A stretch of DNA of 64,000 nt. Origin: Anseongella ginsenosidimutans. GTDB lineage: Bacteria; Bacteroidota; Bacteroidia; Sphingobacteriales; Sphingobacteriaceae. The position numbers were made by a program, and so were the translations under genes. The stretch lies in assembly GCA_029268045.1 (NCBI GenBank), contig JAJUHF010000002.1, positions 1-64,000 on the forward strand. Direction: 5' to 3'. Positions 18,673-51,632 of the stretch are shown here, piece after piece; the first letter of the stretch is position 1, and every line of letters begins with the position of its first letter. The notes beneath the pieces are model-generated. The model searched no databases. It saw only the letters and a program-made list of their open reading frames with translations, and was not told the DNA's origin.

Positions 18673-18695
18673 CAATTTTCTTGTTCCTTAAAAAG

Positions 18696-18769
18696 CGGTC
18701 CGGACGGGACTCGAACCCGCGACCCCATGCGTGACAGGCATGTATTCTAACCAGCTGAACTACCGGACC
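18696..18769 (-). tRNA. tRNA-Asp (anticodon GUC)
   Basis: Read on the minus strand, the acceptor stem GGTCCGG/CCGGACC is perfect. The D-arm contains AGCTGGTTAGA, the anticodon loop is CTGTCAC with anticodon GTC, and the T-arm is GCGGG-TTCGAGT-CCCGT. Discriminator is G, as expected for Asp. Length is 74 with no encoded CCA. It has its own promoter and terminator. Confidence 0.97.
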
Positions 18770-44148: not shown

Positions 44149-44937
44149 TCAAAGTGCGCTCAGCGCCTTGATGAAGTCCTGGCATGCTTTGCCGGGATCG
44201 GCCTCCTTCATGAAGGTTTCCCCGATCAGAAATCCGCTGAAGCCCGCTTCTTTCAGCTGCAGGATCACTTCGGGCCGACTGATCGCGCTTTCCGATATTT
44301 TCACGGACGAAGCCGGAAGCTGGGCGCCCAGGAGGAATGAAGTCTGGACATCGGTTGTGAAATCATTCAGGTTCCGGTTATTGATCCCCACCACGTCAAC
44401 GAAAGAATTCACATGTCCCAGTTCCTGTTCATGGTGGATTTCGAGCAGCACTTCCAGTCCCAGGGAGTGGGCAAAGCGGGCAAGTTTTTCCGTTTCGAAC
44501 GTACTCAGGACGGAAGCGATCAGCAGGATCACATCGGCTCCGATGGCCTTGGCTTCCATCACCTGATATTCGTCGATGATAAAATCCTTTCGGAGAATGG
44601 GAATATGGACCGCAGCCCGGGATTTCTGCAGGTTTTCGTTACTGCCTCCGAAAAAGTCCACGTCGGTAAGCACCGAAATGGCCGAAGCGCCGGCGAGCTC
44701 ATAACCACTTACCGTAGCAATCAGGTCGGCCTCCCCATTCAGGACCCCTTTTGATGGCGATCTCCTTTTAAACTCCGCGATGATCCCCGATGCGCCGCGC
44801 CGGGTCAGCGCCTTTTTCAGGGAGAGGCATTCTCTTTTATAATACGCGCTGCTTTCCAGACGGCTGGCCGGAACGCGCTTTCGGTTCCATTCAATTTCTT
44901 CCTTCTTCCGGCCTACAATCTTATCCAGTATACTCAT
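44149..44937 (-). CDS. trpC: indole-3-glycerol phosphate synthase
   Basis: TrpC closes the indole ring from CdRP. Motifs of the TIM-barrel: IIAEFKRRSPSKG (substrate-binding Lys), ISVLTDVDFFGGS, ILRKDFIIDEYQ, GLEVLLEIHHEQEL, VVGINNRNLNDF and KISESAISRPE. The ATG at 44937 gives 262 residues; it overlaps the trpG stop by 4 nt (ATGA). The frame continues upstream but only as trpG antiphase. Last gene of the visible trp operon. Confidence 0.95.
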   Translation of the reverse strand: MSILDKIVGRKKEEIEWNRKRVPASRLESSAYYKRECLSLKKALTRRGASGIIAEFKRRSPSKGVLNGEADLIATVSGYELAGASAISVLTDVDFFGGSNENLQKSRAAVHIPILRKDFIIDEYQVMEAKAIGADVILLIASVLSTFETEKLARFAHSLGLEVLLEIHHEQELGHVNSFVDVVGINNRNLNDFTTDVQTSFLLGAQLPASSVKISESAISRPEVILQLKEAGFSGFLIGETFMKEADPGKACQDFIKALSAL

Positions 44938-45515
44938 ACGTACTCCTGTTTTAACCAGTTTTCCATGATCTTCCGGCCATGATCGGTCAGTACCGACTCG
45001 GGATGGAACTGCACACCGCACACATTGTACTCCCGGTGCCTCAAGGCCATGATCGTACCCTGGGAATCTCTTGCCGTGATCTTTAAAGCGGAGGGGAAAT
45101 TCTCATCCGACACGGCCCAGGAATGGTACCGTCCGGTTTTGAACCGGGCAGGAACGCCTTGAAAAAGCGGATCGTTTTCATCCAGGATCTCCGTTTCCAT
45201 TGCAACTCCGTGAAACACGTTGGGAAGATTCACAAGCGTGGCTCCGAATACTTCGCCGATGGCTTGCTCACCCAAACATACCCCAAAGATAGGCTTAATG
45301 CTTGCATATTCCCTAATCAATTCACATAGGATGCCCGATTCGGACGGGAGTCCCGGTCCGGGGGAGAGAATGATGCCGTCAAACGCGCCCGCATCTTCCA
45401 GGCCGATCTTGTCGTTGCGGTGGACTTCCAGCTGATAATCGCCGATCTCGCGTACCAGGTGAACCAGATTGTATGTAAAGGAATCGTAATTGTCCAGTAT
45501 CAATATCTTTTTCAT
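44934..45515 (-). CDS. trpG: anthranilate synthase glutamine amidotransferase subunit
   Basis: Class I glutaminase of 193 residues with the triad Cys80 (IFGVCLGEQAI), His171 and Glu173 (GVQFHPESVLT); N-terminal ILILDNYDSFTYNLVHL and oxyanion SPGPGLPSE. The residue after GVCLG is Glu, where many homologues have His or Met. Supplies ammonia to TrpE. It starts 8 nt after trpE. An in-frame TTG at 45527 would add four residues but has no support. It could also serve para-aminobenzoate synthesis; its place between trpE and trpC favours Trp. Confidence 0.92.
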   Translation of the reverse strand: MKKILILDNYDSFTYNLVHLVREIGDYQLEVHRNDKIGLEDAGAFDGIILSPGPGLPSESGILCELIREYASIKPIFGVCLGEQAIGEVFGATLVNLPNVFHGVAMETEILDENDPLFQGVPARFKTGRYHSWAVSDENFPSALKITARDSQGTIMALRHREYNVCGVQFHPESVLTDHGRKIMENWLKQEYV

Positions 45516-45523
45516 TTGTTCTG

Positions 45524-46954
45524 TCAAAAGGTTCCGGAAAAAATTTCGCCGGCCATTTCTATTGCTTTCTTGAGGGCTGCCAGCTTGTTTCGCACCTCCT
45601 GCAATTCATTTTCATGCACCGAGTCGGCCACGAAACCAAAGCCTGCCTGGAAATGAAGTGTATTTTGTTTGCTTAAAAAAGACCGGATCATAATGGCGTG
45701 ATTGAAATCGCCGTTGAAACCGAGAAATCCGATCGCCCCGGCGTAGAAGCCGCGTGACTGCTTTTCGTACCGGTCTATCAATTGCATCGCCCGGTATTTG
45801 GGCGCGCCCGAAAGGGTGCCTGCCGGAAAAGTTTTTGCGACGATTTTCATGGTCGGTACGTCGTCGCGGAGTTTCCCTGAAACGGTAGATACCAGATGGA
45901 TCACATGGGAGTAATATTGCACTTCACGGAATTTCTCTACCTGGACCCTTTCGCAATGGACGCTCAGGTCATTGCGGGCCAAATCCACCAGCATCACGTG
46001 TTCGGCATTTTCCTTCGAATCTTCCATGAGCTTTTCAGCCAGGATCGCATCGGCTTCGTCATCCCCGCTCCGTCGGAAGGTACCCGCGATGGGATAAATG
46101 GTCGCGACCCGGTTTTTTACCGTCAGCTGCGCTTCGGGTGACGAGCCGAATAATTTGAAATTTCCGTAATCGAAATAAAACAGGTAGGGCGAAGGATTGA
46201 TGGATCGGAGCGCGCGGTACACATTGAACTCGTCGCCCTGGAATTGCTGACTGAAACTGCGTGAGGCCACGATCTGGAAAACATCTCCGCGGGCGATGTG
46301 TTCTTTGAGCCGGTCCATGATTTCCAGCGTTTCCTCATCGGTCATGTTCGAGGATTCCCCGCCCAGGGTCCTGAAATGGTATTCGGGAATATTCTTGTTC
46401 CGGATAAGCAACTCAATCCGTTCAATCCCGCCTGGTTTTTCCTGCGTGTCGCCGGCGTGGTGTTCAAAAATGTGCAACTCGTTTTTAAAATGATTGATGG
46501 CGATCACGTACCGGTACAGGTGATATTGCATTTCAGGGATGCTCCGTTCCGGCCGACGTTCCGCCTGGAGGCTTATGTCTTCGAAATACTGTACGGTGTC
46601 GTATGTAAAGTATCCGAATAAGCCTCCGGTACTGAAATTGAATTGCTGGTCCGTTTCGTATTGGAAGGCATTGGTAAATTCACTGATCTTCTGGGGGACA
46701 TCGATTTCGGCGCATTGATACGTGTGCCGGCTTCCATCGGGAAACTCCTCGGTGAACTGGCCGTCTTCTATCTTAATGTGAGCGATCGGATCGCAGCAGA
46801 TAAAGGACATGCTGTTTCCCCGGGCGTGGTAGTCGGAACTTTCGAGGAGAATGCTATTGGGAAATTCGTCCCGCAGCCGCAGGTAAATACTAACCGGCGT
46901 AGCCGTGTCGGCCAGCAAGGTTTTGTGTTTAGAGCGAAGAATATATTGCGCCAT
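45524..46954 (-). CDS. trpE: anthranilate synthase component I
   Basis: Makes anthranilate from chorismate. The N-terminal ILLESSDYH corresponds to the LLES-type motif of the Trp feedback site, which argues for TrpE over PabB. The chorismate-binding domain has QIVASRSFSQQF, GSSPEAQLTVKNRVATIYPIAGTFRR (in two parts), HVMLVDLARNDL and FPAGTLSGAPKYRAMQLIDR. 476 residues. Preceded by a leader peptide and attenuator, so expression responds to charged tRNA-Trp. Confidence 0.95.
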   Translation of the reverse strand: MAQYILRSKHKTLLADTATPVSIYLRLRDEFPNSILLESSDYHARGNSMSFICCDPIAHIKIEDGQFTEEFPDGSRHTYQCAEIDVPQKISEFTNAFQYETDQQFNFSTGGLFGYFTYDTVQYFEDISLQAERRPERSIPEMQYHLYRYVIAINHFKNELHIFEHHAGDTQEKPGGIERIELLIRNKNIPEYHFRTLGGESSNMTDEETLEIMDRLKEHIARGDVFQIVASRSFSQQFQGDEFNVYRALRSINPSPYLFYFDYGNFKLFGSSPEAQLTVKNRVATIYPIAGTFRRSGDDEADAILAEKLMEDSKENAEHVMLVDLARNDLSVHCERVQVEKFREVQYYSHVIHLVSTVSGKLRDDVPTMKIVAKTFPAGTLSGAPKYRAMQLIDRYEKQSRGFYAGAIGFLGFNGDFNHAIMIRSFLSKQNTLHFQAGFGFVADSVHENELQEVRNKLAALKKAIEMAGEIFSGTF

Positions 46955-47009: not shown

Positions 47010-47042
47010 AAAAAAGCCCGCCGTTTATCACGACAGGCTTTT
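47010..47042 (-). terminator. trp attenuator terminator (segments 3:4)
   Basis: On the minus strand AAAAGCCTGTCG (47042-47031) pairs with CGGCGGGCTTTT (47023-47012) over 12 bp with two G-U pairs, followed by a T-run. The 5' arm can pair instead with ACAGGCTTTT of the leader gene (47102-47093), a perfect 10-bp antiterminator. It lies 40 nt beyond the leader stop and 56 nt before trpE. Confidence 0.88.
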
Positions 47043-47081
47043 ATATACTATGTTTCTTTCGTTATTTGTTATTTTATAGGG

Positions 47082-47156
47082 TTATTCCATACAAAAGCCT
47101 GTGGATCGTGTTTTTCCACGCCACCACCAACCTGTATGTACTACCTGATAAATCAT
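47082..47156 (-). CDS. trpL: trp operon leader peptide (24 residues, three consecutive Trp)
   Basis: ATG at 47156 opens MIYQVVHTGWWWRGK, continuing for nine more residues to TAA at 47082. Trp codons 10-12 are at 47129-47121. They sit in one arm of a hairpin (47124-47101, with CGTG-CACG core) whose formation would compete with the antiterminator segment 47102-47093. Stalling at the Trp codons would free this segment to block the terminator at 47042-47010. This is the standard ribosome-mediated attenuation layout. The ATG is only 5 nt after the predicted -7 element, so the message may be leaderless. Confidence 0.88.
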   Translation of the reverse strand: MIYQVVHTGWWWRGKTRSTGFCME

Positions 47157-47161
47157 CGGTT

Positions 47162-47192
47162 CAAAGATGAGAAAGAAATATTTTAATTCAAA
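47162..47192 (-). promoter_or_regulatory. trp operon promoter
   Basis: On the minus strand TTTG (47192-47189), a 19-nt spacer, then CATCTTTG (47169-47162), one mismatch from TANNTTTG. Start site predicted at about 47157. Confidence 0.65.
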
Positions 47193-47305: not shown

Positions 47306-50300
47306 ATGAAAACAAAACCCCTTTTTGCTCTGCTGGCGATCGCATTTGCCTACGCGGTTCCCACGGGGGTACTTGCTCAGGAAACCTTCCCGGAAAATGG
47401 CGTGCAGGATAAACGTCCGCAATTGTACGCCTTTACCAATGCGACCATCGTGCAGCGGGCGGGCGTGCGGATCGAACAGGGGACGCTGTTGATCCGTCAG
47501 GGTAGAATTGAAGCAATCGGCAGGCAGGTGACCATCCCGCCCGGTGCGGTGGTAAGAGACCTGCAGGGGAAATACATTTACCCTTCCCTCATCGATTTAT
47601 ACACTTCCTACGGACTTCCGTCGCCGGGCAGCATCCCACGGAGAGCCGACGCTTCGCCACAATTTCTTTCGGAAAAGCGGGGCGCATACGGCTGGAATGA
47701 GGCCATCCGGGCGGAATATCAAGCAAGCGATCACTTTGCTGTTCACCCGGGGGAAGCGGAAAAGCTGCGCAAACTTGGATTCGGGGCCGTCTTATCGCAT
47801 AATAAGGACGGCATCGGCAGGGGAACGTCCGTACTGGTCACCCTGGGACAGGAGCGGGACAACCTGGAGCTGCTTCAACGGGCGGCGGCAACCCATTATT
47901 CTTTTAACAAGGGGAGTTCGGGAAACGATTATCCTACCTCCCTGATGGGCGCCGTGGCGCTGCTGCGGCAAACCTGGTACGATGCCCGGTGGTACGCCGC
48001 AGGCGGCAGGGAACAGGCACGGGATCTTTCCCTGGAGGCCTTGGTGGCGACGCAGGAACTTCCCCGGATTTTTGAAGCAGCCGACGTGCTGGATATTCTC
48101 CGGGCGGACCGGGTGGGGGACGAATTCGATGTCCAGTTTGTTTTCCGGGGGAATGGCGACTCGTATCAGCGGTTGGATCTGGTCAAAGCCACGGGCGGCG
48201 CCTTGATCGTGCCTTTGAATTTCCCGGAGGCCTACGATATGGACGATCCCTACGACGCGCGACAGGTGAGCCTTCGGCAGATGAAACATTGGGAATTGGC
48301 GCCGTTCAACCCGGGAAGACTGGAGGCGGCCGGGATCCCTTTTGCCATAACAGCTGAAGGCGCGGAAAAGGACTTCTGGAAAAATCTGCGCAAGGCCATC
48401 GCCTGCGGTCTTTCCCCGGAGCAGGCGCTCCGCTCACTTACGGAGATTCCGGCCGGCCTGATCGGAATGGAGGAGCAATTGGGCACCCTGGAACGGGGCA
48501 AGCTCGCCAATTTTCTCATCACTACCTCGGCGCTGTTTGATGAAGACAACGTAATTCAGGAGAATTGGGTCAGTGGCGTCCCCTATTCGGTGGATGATCC
48601 CGGACTTGCCGGCCTGATCGGAATCTACCAGGTAGAAGTGCCCGGTCTGCCGGCCTTGGAGATGATCATTTCGGGTCCGGCGGCAAAGCCCGAAGTACGT
48701 CTGATAGCGGATAAGGAGGAAGCCAACGCTTCTTTCAATAAAACGGGCGGACTGTTTACGCTGCGGGCGGAAATGGATATTGCAGGCGGGGCGCTCCGCC
48801 TGAGCGGTTTTGCTCCCTCCCCGGGCGAGGTGCCGGCCCGCGGTCTGACCGGGCAGGCCACCCTGGCCGGCGGGGAAACGGTCACCTGGTCGGCAACACG
48901 GACTGCCGATGCAAAGAAAAGCGACGGCAGAAAAGCTGAGCAACAAACAGCCGGGCAGAAGCCGGGTCCTGTTCTTTATCCTTTTACTGCCTATGGCTGG
49001 CAGCAGCTGCCGAAGGCGGAAAAAGTCCTGATCAAAAACGCGACGGTATGGACAAACGAGCGTCCGGGCGTGCTGCAGCGCGCCGACGTGCTAATCGAAC
49101 AGGGGAAAATAGCGGCCGTGGGAACGGACCTGCGCACGGGGGGAGCCCGGGTAATTGACGCGGAAGGCAAGCACCTGACCCCTGGCATTGTAGACGAACA
49201 CTCCCACATCGCCTGCACACGCGGCATCAACGAAGCCGGGCAGGCGGTTTCCGCCGAGGTACGCATGGGCGATGTGATCAATTCGGAAGACATTAATATA
49301 TACCGTCAACTGGCCGGCGGGGTGACCACCTCCCACATTTTACACGGTTCAGCCAATCCAATCGGAGGCCAGAGCCAATTGATCAAGCTGCGGTGGGGAC
49401 AGGATCCCGAAGGTCTGAAATTCGAAGGAGCCGACGGGTTCATCAAATTCGCCCTCGGCGAAAATGTGAAGCAGTCCAACTGGGGCGACAATCAGACTAC
49501 CCGTTTTCCCCAGACCCGGATGGGCGTACAGCAGGTGATGGTGGACGCGTTCCAACGGGCCAAGGAATACGGAAAAGCCCGGGGTGCGGGCGGTAACGTC
49601 CGGCGCGACCTGGAGCTGGACGCCCTCTTGGAAATATTGAATGAGAAACGCTTTATAACCTGCCATTCCTACGTGCAGTCGGAGATTGCCATGCTGATGC
49701 ACGTGGCCGACTCGATGGGATTCCGGGTGAATACATTTACCCATATTCTGGAAGGATACAAGCTGGCCGATGAAATGGCGGCACACGGGGCAGCAGGATC
49801 TACCTTTTCTGACTGGTGGGCCTATAAAATGGAAGTAAAGGACGCGATCCCGTACAACGCTGCCATGATGCACCAGGCGGGTGTGCTTGCAGGCATTAAT
49901 TCAGACGATGCCGAAATGGCCAGGCGGCTGAACCAGGAAGCCGCTAAGGCAGTCATGTACGGCGGCCTTTCAGAAGAAGAGGCCCTGAAGCTGGTGACGC
50001 TCAATCCTGCCAGAATGCTGCATATCGACGACCGGGTGGGAAGCATCGCTGTAGGAAAAGATGCCGATCTGGTAATCTGGTCCGATCATCCGTTGTCGAT
50101 TTACGCGAAAGTGGAAAAGACCTTCGTGGACGGCATCGCGTATTACGATGCAGATAGGGACGCTGAACTGCAGCAGCAGATTAGCCGGGAACGCGCCCGG
50201 CTTACCGGGAAAATGCTGGGCGTGAAGCAAGCGGGGGGAAGCACCCAAAAGCCGGTATCGGAAAATAAAATTTACTATCACTGTGAGGATGTATACGATG

Positions 50301-50314
50301 AATTTAACCACTAA
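47306..50314 (+). CDS. large secreted amidohydrolase with two amidohydrolase-like halves
   Basis: 1002 residues with a signal peptide (MKTKPLFALLAIAFAYAVPT, cleaved near VLAQ). The N-terminal half (about 40-440) is amidohydrolase-like (NATIVQRAGVRIEQGTLLI; YPSLIDLYTSYGLP) but lacks the HxH metal motif. After a beta-domain of about 100 residues, the C-terminal half (about 575-970) has the intact motif TPGIVDEHSHIA (His632, His634), later His residues in RFITCHSYVQ and NTFTHILEGYK, and GINSDDAEMARRL with the catalytic Asp. The substrate is unknown; such proteins are often annotated imidazolonepropionase-like. Its stop overlaps the next gene by 17 nt. Confidence 0.82.
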   Translation: MKTKPLFALLAIAFAYAVPTGVLAQETFPENGVQDKRPQLYAFTNATIVQRAGVRIEQGTLLIRQGRIEAIGRQVTIPPGAVVRDLQGKYIYPSLIDLYTSYGLPSPGSIPRRADASPQFLSEKRGAYGWNEAIRAEYQASDHFAVHPGEAEKLRKLGFGAVLSHNKDGIGRGTSVLVTLGQERDNLELLQRAAATHYSFNKGSSGNDYPTSLMGAVALLRQTWYDARWYAAGGREQARDLSLEALVATQELPRIFEAADVLDILRADRVGDEFDVQFVFRGNGDSYQRLDLVKATGGALIVPLNFPEAYDMDDPYDARQVSLRQMKHWELAPFNPGRLEAAGIPFAITAEGAEKDFWKNLRKAIACGLSPEQALRSLTEIPAGLIGMEEQLGTLERGKLANFLITTSALFDEDNVIQENWVSGVPYSVDDPGLAGLIGIYQVEVPGLPALEMIISGPAAKPEVRLIADKEEANASFNKTGGLFTLRAEMDIAGGALRLSGFAPSPGEVPARGLTGQATLAGGETVTWSATRTADAKKSDGRKAEQQTAGQKPGPVLYPFTAYGWQQLPKAEKVLIKNATVWTNERPGVLQRADVLIEQGKIAAVGTDLRTGGARVIDAEGKHLTPGIVDEHSHIACTRGINEAGQAVSAEVRMGDVINSEDINIYRQLAGGVTTSHILHGSANPIGGQSQLIKLRWGQDPEGLKFEGADGFIKFALGENVKQSNWGDNQTTRFPQTRMGVQQVMVDAFQRAKEYGKARGAGGNVRRDLELDALLEILNEKRFITCHSYVQSEIAMLMHVADSMGFRVNTFTHILEGYKLADEMAAHGAAGSTFSDWWAYKMEVKDAIPYNAAMMHQAGVLAGINSDDAEMARRLNQEAAKAVMYGGLSEEEALKLVTLNPARMLHIDDRVGSIAVGKDADLVIWSDHPLSIYAKVEKTFVDGIAYYDADRDAELQQQISRERARLTGKMLGVKQAGGSTQKPVSENKIYYHCEDVYDEFNH

Positions 50315-51632
50315 GCGCCTGATCCGTTTGTGCGTGGCAGGTATTTTATGGGCCGGATTCCTGACCAGGGGCGGTTTGCCCTTGATGGCGCAGCCGACCA
50401 TTATTCCAGCTCCGCCGCAGGAACAGCCCCTGCTGATTGAGGGAGCCACCATTCATGTGGGCAACGGAACGGTTATCGAAAACGGTTCCCTGCGGATGGA
50501 AAACGGAAAGATTTCCGCGGTGGGACCGGCCGGATCGGTCAGCGTATCCGGCGCCATGGTAATTAAGGCCGGCGGAAAGCACGTATATCCCGGTTTGATC
50601 GCCTGCCATACGATCCTGGGGCTGGCGGAAATAGAAGCCGTCCGGGCCACGCGCGATTACAACGAAACAGGCGAGCTCAATCCAAACGTGCGTGCCATCG
50701 TAGCCTACGAAGCCGACTCGCACGTCCCGCCCACGGTTCGTTCTAACGGGGTCCTGCTTGCGCAGATCGTCCCCCAGGGAGGTGTGATCTCCGGGACCTC
50801 CTCGGTGGTTGCGCTGGATGCCTGGACCTGGGAAGAAGCGGCCTATCAAACCGACGGCGGACTGTGGATCAACTGGCCTGGGAACAGCGTGGATGTAACA
50901 GCCAACGCCGATCAACGTCAAAAGCAACGGGAACAGGTCGAAGAACGGCTTCGCGCGCTTACGCACTTTATGGAGCAGGCGAAAGCCTATGGCGAACTGC
51001 CGCAGCCGGATGTCAAAAACCTCCGATTTGAAGCGGTAAAGGGGATTTTCACGGGGGAGAAGCGCCTGTTTATCCGGGCCGGCCGGGCAAAAGATATTCT
51101 GGCCGCGCTGAACTGGTGCCGCACATTGGAGGTCCGTCCAGTGATTTATGGCGGACACGAGGCGCATCTGGTGGCGGACTTTCTCCGGGATGATCAGGTG
51201 CCGGTGATCCTGGACGACCCGCATGCGCTGCCTTCCCGTGCCGACGACGATGTCAACCTGCCTTATAAAAGAGCGGCCTTATTGAAAGATGCGGGTGTCG
51301 AGTTCTGTGTGAGTACCTGGGGATACTGGCAGCTGCGTAACCTGCCATTCATGGCCGGAACCGCTGCGGCCTGGGGGCTGACCCGGGAAGAAGCGCTGAC
51401 AGCGGTTACCCTGGCGCCTGCACGCATCCTGGGAATCGACGCCACCACCGGCAGCCTGGAGGTCGGAAAAGACGCCACCTTATTTATTTCAGGCGGAGAC
51501 GCGCTGGATATGCGGACTAACCAGGTGGAGGCCGCCTTTATCCAAGGCCGCAGCATCGATCTGGATAACCGGCAGAAACAGCTATACCGTAAATACATGG
51601 GAAAGTACGGGCTGGAAGCCAAACTGCCTTAA
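50298..51632 (+). CDS. second secreted amidohydrolase-like protein, metal site degenerate
   Basis: 444 residues with an N-terminal signal-like segment (LIRLCVAGILWAGFLTRGG). It matches the N-terminal half of the upstream protein: LLIEGATIHVGNGTVIENG, VYPGLIACHTILGL (CHT where active enzymes have HxH), GTSSVVALDAWTWEEA, and the C-terminal LTAVTLAPARILGIDATTGSLEVGKDATL. Loss of the metal-binding pair suggests a non-catalytic partner or altered metal site. The start ATG at 50298 lies inside the preceding gene, implying coupled expression and probably a complex. An ATG at 50283 is also possible. Confidence 0.8.
   Translation: MNLTTKRLIRLCVAGILWAGFLTRGGLPLMAQPTIIPAPPQEQPLLIEGATIHVGNGTVIENGSLRMENGKISAVGPAGSVSVSGAMVIKAGGKHVYPGLIACHTILGLAEIEAVRATRDYNETGELNPNVRAIVAYEADSHVPPTVRSNGVLLAQIVPQGGVISGTSSVVALDAWTWEEAAYQTDGGLWINWPGNSVDVTANADQRQKQREQVEERLRALTHFMEQAKAYGELPQPDVKNLRFEAVKGIFTGEKRLFIRAGRAKDILAALNWCRTLEVRPVIYGGHEAHLVADFLRDDQVPVILDDPHALPSRADDDVNLPYKRAALLKDAGVEFCVSTWGYWQLRNLPFMAGTAAAWGLTREEALTAVTLAPARILGIDATTGSLEVGKDATLFISGGDALDMRTNQVEAAFIQGRSIDLDNRQKQLYRKYMGKYGLEAKLP

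Follow-up and report, generated by a model that had tools for sequence, protein, structure and literature searches.

A predicted ribosome-mediated tryptophan attenuator in front of trpEGC in Anseongella ginsenosidimutans and its relatives in the Sphingobacteriaceae

The window analysed here, a 64,000-nucleotide stretch of Anseongella ginsenosidimutans contig JAJUHF010000002.1, carries on its reverse strand the tryptophan biosynthesis genes trpE, trpG and trpC, preceded by a leader region. TrpG and TrpC score above curated NCBIfam cut-offs, and the window's trpE is 60-84% identical to the trpE of its relatives. The features, in window coordinates, are as follows.

44149..44937, reverse strand: trpC, indole-3-glycerol phosphate synthase (NF001377 above cut-off; the match starts at residue 29 of the longest ORF)
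44934..45527, reverse strand: trpG, anthranilate synthase component II (TIGR00566 above cut-off)
45524..46954, reverse strand: trpE, anthranilate synthase component I (best match TIGR00564 trpE_most, 425.7 bits, under the model cut-off of 517.7)
47010..47042, reverse strand: intrinsic terminator 3:4, 13 bp with a loop of 5, plus six T (predicted fold; RNAalifold)
47033..47042, reverse strand: strand 3, AAAAGCCTGT, 3' arm of the antiterminator and 5' arm of the terminator (sequence; covariation)
47082..47156, reverse strand: trpL leader ORF, MIYQVVHTGWWWRGKTRSTGFCME, 24 codons, ATG at 47156 and TAA at 47084-47082 (clustered-Trp leader in nearly all relatives)
47088..47093, reverse strand: TGTATG, 3' arm of the outer 1:2 stem, at the 3' end of strand 2 (predicted fold; covaries in the family)
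47093..47102, reverse strand: strand 2, ACAGGCTTTT, 5' arm of the antiterminator, within the leader ORF (sequence; covariation)
47101..47127, reverse strand: inner 1:2 hairpin, GTGG/CCAC and CGTG/CACG (predicted fold; noted by the first-pass annotation)
47121..47129, reverse strand: three adjacent Trp codons, the sensor, TGGTGGTGG, read as TGG TGG TGG (sequence)
47133..47138, reverse strand: strand 1, CATACA, 5' arm of the outer 1:2 stem, just upstream of the Trp codons (predicted fold; covaries in the family)
47162..47169, reverse strand: -7 promoter element, CATCTTTG, ending 5 nt before the leader ATG (sequence)
47189..47192, reverse strand: -33 promoter element, TTTG (sequence; most family loci have this element at the aligned position)

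Divergent from the trp leader lie two amidohydrolase-like ORFs on the forward strand (47306-50314 and 50283-51632), the first of which was checked against NCBIfam; about 110 bases separate its start codon from the trp promoter. Elsewhere the window holds a TPP riboswitch at 951-1044 on the forward strand (79 bits, Rfam) and a tRNA-Asp gene at 18695-18769 on the reverse strand. In a congener (genome G001, locus L002), the trpE match is interrupted near residues 367-390 and continues as a second piece, which may reflect a frameshift or a sequencing error.

A short ORF with clustered Trp codons stands before the trp biosynthesis genes, as in an attenuator. The first-pass annotation of this DNA had described a leader of 24 codons, three of them adjacent Trp codons at 47129-47121, and a perfect 10-bp antiterminator pairing 47102-47093 with 47042-47033, and both are confirmed by the sequence: strand 2, ACAGGCTTTT, is fully complementary to strand 3, AAAAGCCTGT, over 10 bp, and the strand 2:strand 3 duplex reaches -20.3 kcal/mol, a value equalled in 0 of 2000 dinucleotide shuffles. 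In the predicted fold the GC-rich terminator stem pairs 47042-47030 with 47024-47012, including two G-U pairs, and six T follow at 47015-47010, so that the T-run reported earlier is present, while the stem measures 13 bp instead of the 12 given. The 2:3 and 3:4 pairings have strand 3 in common and are mutually exclusive, 3:4 being the intrinsic terminator, and the leader as a whole folds with z = -3.9 (0/200 shuffles equally good). The overlap between 1:2 and the antiterminator, earlier put at only two bases, has that size in the inner hairpin, which does appear in the predicted fold; the whole pairing, however, is larger than was first seen, with an outer stem (47138-47133/47093-47088) that encloses strand 2.

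The Bacteroidota-type promoter previously assigned to trpEGC is likewise supported, CATCTTTG differing from the consensus TAnnTTTG by one mismatch and standing 19 nt from the upstream TTTG. A -7 box lies 3-13 nt from the leader start in 98/108 family loci. Scanning with sigma-70 and terminator patterns returned nothing at the leader, because the promoter is of the wrong type for that scan and its T-run rule is unfit for this stem; we think that the scan looks for the T run only beyond the longest possible stem, and in this leader that stem takes in A-T pairs.

Conservation was assessed with a joint criterion, namely an ATG-start ORF, 8-45 codons long, in which Trp codons cluster, together with a terminator of -10 kcal/mol or better located 40-95 nt past the ORF stop. 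This combination occurs at 104/111 trpE loci of the window's family, the Sphingobacteriaceae (genomes named Solitalea, Pedobacter, Mucilaginibacter, Parapedobacter, Daejeonella and others), and at 46/59 trpE loci from other families, compared with 0/289 control ORFs of at least 150 codons in 400 kb of three family genomes. The family loci contain some duplicates between collections, and 53 are left at <85% similarity. All 80 named loci have leader and terminator, and the attenuator was found in 25 of 33 sampled families besides the window's own, including some lineages outside its class, suggesting that it is probably old in the phylum. Within the alignment of 53 sequences (A1), TGGTGG is nearly invariant. 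Strand 2 begins a median of 21 nt past the first Trp codon, and 16-29 nt past it in 107/108 loci, a spacing consistent with a stalled ribosome leaving strand 2 free. A weaker Trp signal is seen in a few leaders (L006 and L009 from one genus, L122 and L120), which have a single Trp codon or separated Trp or Cys-Trp-Cys codons and retain the terminator.

Strands 2, 3 and 4 vary jointly between lineages, taking the form AAAAGCCTGTCG in the window and its congener; Solitalea has AAGCTTGTCGCA, many genera have ACCCGACGC, and Mucilaginibacter has CCCGGCG. A stem at the position of the outer 1:2 helix is present in most relatives, where the 5' arm precedes the Trp codons and the 3' arm comes directly after strand 2, with varying sequence (CATAC:GTATG, AAATAC:GTATTT, TTAAATACCTGTA:TACAGGTATTTGA and GTTCC:GGAAC). 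RNAalifold applied to the 53-sequence alignment recovered the terminator alone, the stem pairing being retained via two-sided changes in 6/8 pairs, and not 1:2 or 2:3, because MAFFT loses the register of these arms; to test 1:2 and 2:3 for covariation, arms were instead permuted between loci. The loci's own 2:3 duplexes averaged -12.6 kcal/mol versus -10.4 kcal/mol when permuted among relatives (-12.5 versus -10.1 kcal/mol with one locus per distinct arm, n=28), and their own outer 1:2 helices scored 7.86 versus 6.39, each with a count of 0/5000 that is not an exact probability, as arm permutation ignores shared ancestry. The first-pass annotation had named conservation of the Trp codons and of the 2:3 pairing in relatives as the check on its attenuator reading, and the family provides both, the pairing with coordinated change on its two sides. 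The elements, their geometry, their conservation and their covariation can thus be read in the aligned loci themselves.

Based on these comparisons and on modelled folding, we consider it highly probable that the leader is, as first proposed, a ribosome-mediated attenuator of the leader-peptide type, acting on transcription and adjusting trpEGC expression to the availability of charged tRNA-Trp. Leader translation, stalling, in-cell termination, the tryptophan response and the exact transcription start are what we infer from these data. A ribosome would begin the leader ORF at the RNA 5' end or a few bases from there. With ample charged tRNA-Trp it would clear the three Trp codons, reach the stop codon and cover strand 2, upon which strand 3 would pair with strand 4 and transcription would stop at about 47010; folding with a ribosome at the stop codon, strand 2 being covered, gave the terminator at P 0.97. 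When charged tRNA-Trp is scarce, the ribosome would stall at the Trp codons, mask strand 1, open 1:2 and free strand 2, which would pair with strand 3 before the synthesis of strand 4, so that no terminator would form and the polymerase would enter trpE; in folds simulated for the moment at which strand 3 is complete, with the ribosome placed on the first, second or third Trp codon, 2:3 formed at P 0.97-0.98. RNA that is not translated would be expected to form 1:2 and 3:4 and to terminate, and both pairings did form in folding without a ribosome (P 0.97). After synthesis of strand 4, the terminator is the favoured equilibrium structure even if the ribosome is stalled (P ~0.96). Since the equilibrium favours 3:4 in all cases, antitermination must be kinetic, decided during transcription, and in this model it needs close coupling of polymerase and ribosome. 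The conservation of the outer 1:2 stem around strand 2 suggests that, in the default state, 1:2 sequesters strand 2; a ribosome positioned at the Trp codons would cover strand 1 and so break up this structure.

In E. coli trpL, a leader ORF with adjacent Trp codons, the 1:2, 2:3 and 3:4 pairings and a T run follow each other in this order. The window leader shares this order of parts with the enteric trp leader (E. coli trpL, RF00513), from which it differs in having three Trp codons versus two and a Bacteroidota promoter; the RF00513 model (Trp_leader) gave no match in the leader region at E up to 10, and an independent origin of the two is possible. The enteric layout in a Bacteroidota genome, to which the first-pass annotation drew attention, is indeed present, but it is less surprising than was implied, as Rfam RF01692 (Bacteroid-trp, the Bacteroidete tryptophan peptide leader) was already catalogued (Weinberg et al., 2010; PMC2864571) and has been read as similar to the E. 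coli attenuator in a 2019 paper on F. psychrophilum (PMC6414381). RF01692 resembles the window element in occurring in Bacteroidota before trp genes, with a Trp-codon leader ORF and the same part order: terminator strand 3 comes after a large hairpin of the 1:2 type that spans the leader ORF. The window leader is the top RF01692 match of the region and aligns over the whole model, with 29.0 bits and an E value of 0.25 (401-base search) against a gathering threshold of 49 bits; the whole-window Rfam scan at gathering threshold accordingly lists no leader match. The gathering score was reached by only 4/19 loci tested, all in one other family, and these share with the loci of the window's family the position before trpE. 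Strand 3 reads AAAAGCCTGTCG in the window versus AAAAAGGCUUGUC in RF01692, and the window's promoter box is much closer to the leader start. We do not claim formal RF01692 membership, while the window element, judged from its sequence, would work alike in the same place. The mechanism is ordinary, and the kind is not new, Trp leaders in Bacteroidetes being already catalogued; the interest lies in a Bacteroidota trp attenuator whose occurrence greatly exceeds what the public RNA model would indicate, in a second attenuated operon and in a predicted near-leaderless start.

The full promoter, TTG plus (T/C)AnnTTTG, was found before 88/108 family trpE leaders, and its last base lies 3-10 nt from the leader start in 87 of these 88 and 13 nt from it in the remaining one, mostly at 5-8 nt. 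For comparison, the same motif before ORFs of at least 100 codons in family genomes and the window lay within 10 nt in only 1 of 23 cases, with a median of 40 nt, a small control run with a loose motif, a strict one having given only 7 genes. The TAnnTTTG element has been assigned to the -7 region (PMC7366714), which would place the start ~4 nt past the element, so that the 5' UTR would measure roughly 0-7 nt. The 5' UTRs of B. thetaiotaomicron are most often 23 nt long, and only ~3.7% fall below 10 nt (PMC7366714). Promoter spacing is somewhat longer in trpD leaders (mostly 9-13 nt) and often 16-20 nt in the leaders of other families, indicating that tight spacing is strongest for trpE in the window's family. 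The trpE leader ORF is thus probably leaderless or nearly so, which goes beyond the published work that we found. In S. meliloti, transcription of the attenuator leader ORF trpL (rnTrpL) begins at the ATG itself, making the transcript leaderless (PMC7298713); the window leader would be alike in this respect, its leaderless state being deduced from promoter spacing alone, and differs in phylum and sequence. With its promoter-to-leader spacing, the trpE leader suggests, in concrete and testable form, how translation of a leader may be initiated when no Shine-Dalgarno sequence is present.

The same RNA might instead be switched by a ligand or protein, as a tryptophan riboswitch, by a TRAP-like protein or as a T-box, with the leader ORF incidental. 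Some Firmicutes control trp leader terminators in such ways, yet we regard this as improbable here: conservation is strongest for the in-frame TGG run, which keeps a constant distance to strand 2; within the window's leader neither T-box nor any other regulatory family attains its gathering score; and hardly any RNA lies upstream of the leader ORF from which an aptamer could form. We give slightly less credence still to a leader ORF that encodes a small protein acting in trans, the terminator merely ending its transcript, as the leader peptide is poorly conserved in the family outside the Trp run whereas the RNA pairings covary; given the trans function reported for S. meliloti peTrpL (PMC7298713), a trans role of the peptide may nevertheless exist on top of attenuation.

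We see a negligible probability that an ordinary terminator came to lie beside a run of TGG codons by accident. The TGGTGGTGG triplet is by itself not rare, its sole copy in the window comparing with 0.4 expected, and is not significant on its own; the joint criterion, in contrast, selects 0/289 control genes versus 104/111 family trpE loci, and this conservation refutes chance. At the level of sequence, the attenuator is not a chance assembly.

Attenuation by a ribosome on Trp codons would moreover extend to trpD, which in the window's family lies outside the trpEGC cluster at a separate locus. In complete relatives it is distant from trpE (1.53 versus 3.20 Mb in the congener), and the window's genome yielded just a fragment of trpD, adjoining trpF at an apparent contig end. 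Among 30 family trpD loci (L173-L177, L180-L204), 29 carry their own Trp-cluster leader, typically WWW, and a terminator. No paper on a trpD-locus attenuator in this family was found in the open-licence literature, and these predicted attenuators go beyond the published work that we found. With moderate confidence, we propose that the Sphingobacteriaceae divide their trp pathway between two operons that are not linked, trpEGC and a trpD operon, each with a Trp-codon attenuator, and that the trpE leader is leaderless or nearly so, with ribosome loading at the RNA 5' end. If this is true, the ribosome, in a phylum that lacks Shine-Dalgarno initiation, loads upon promoter clearance, which would enforce the coupling needed for attenuation. 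The paired trpE and trpD attenuators are a natural two-reporter test of one signal read twice.

Small family genomes of 1.7-2.0 Mb (G006, G010, G030, G032 and G354) gave no trpD match, and a TrpE search of four of them returned only a weak match, probably of pabB type; they have likely lost tryptophan synthesis. A rough look upstream of hisG in several relatives (L226, L230, L233, L234 and L235) also revealed His-rich short ORFs, e.g. MKKYFIYLHHHHHSTQV and MITKQHIALHHHTHLHHGHHHHCA, whose sequences suggest histidine attenuators too.
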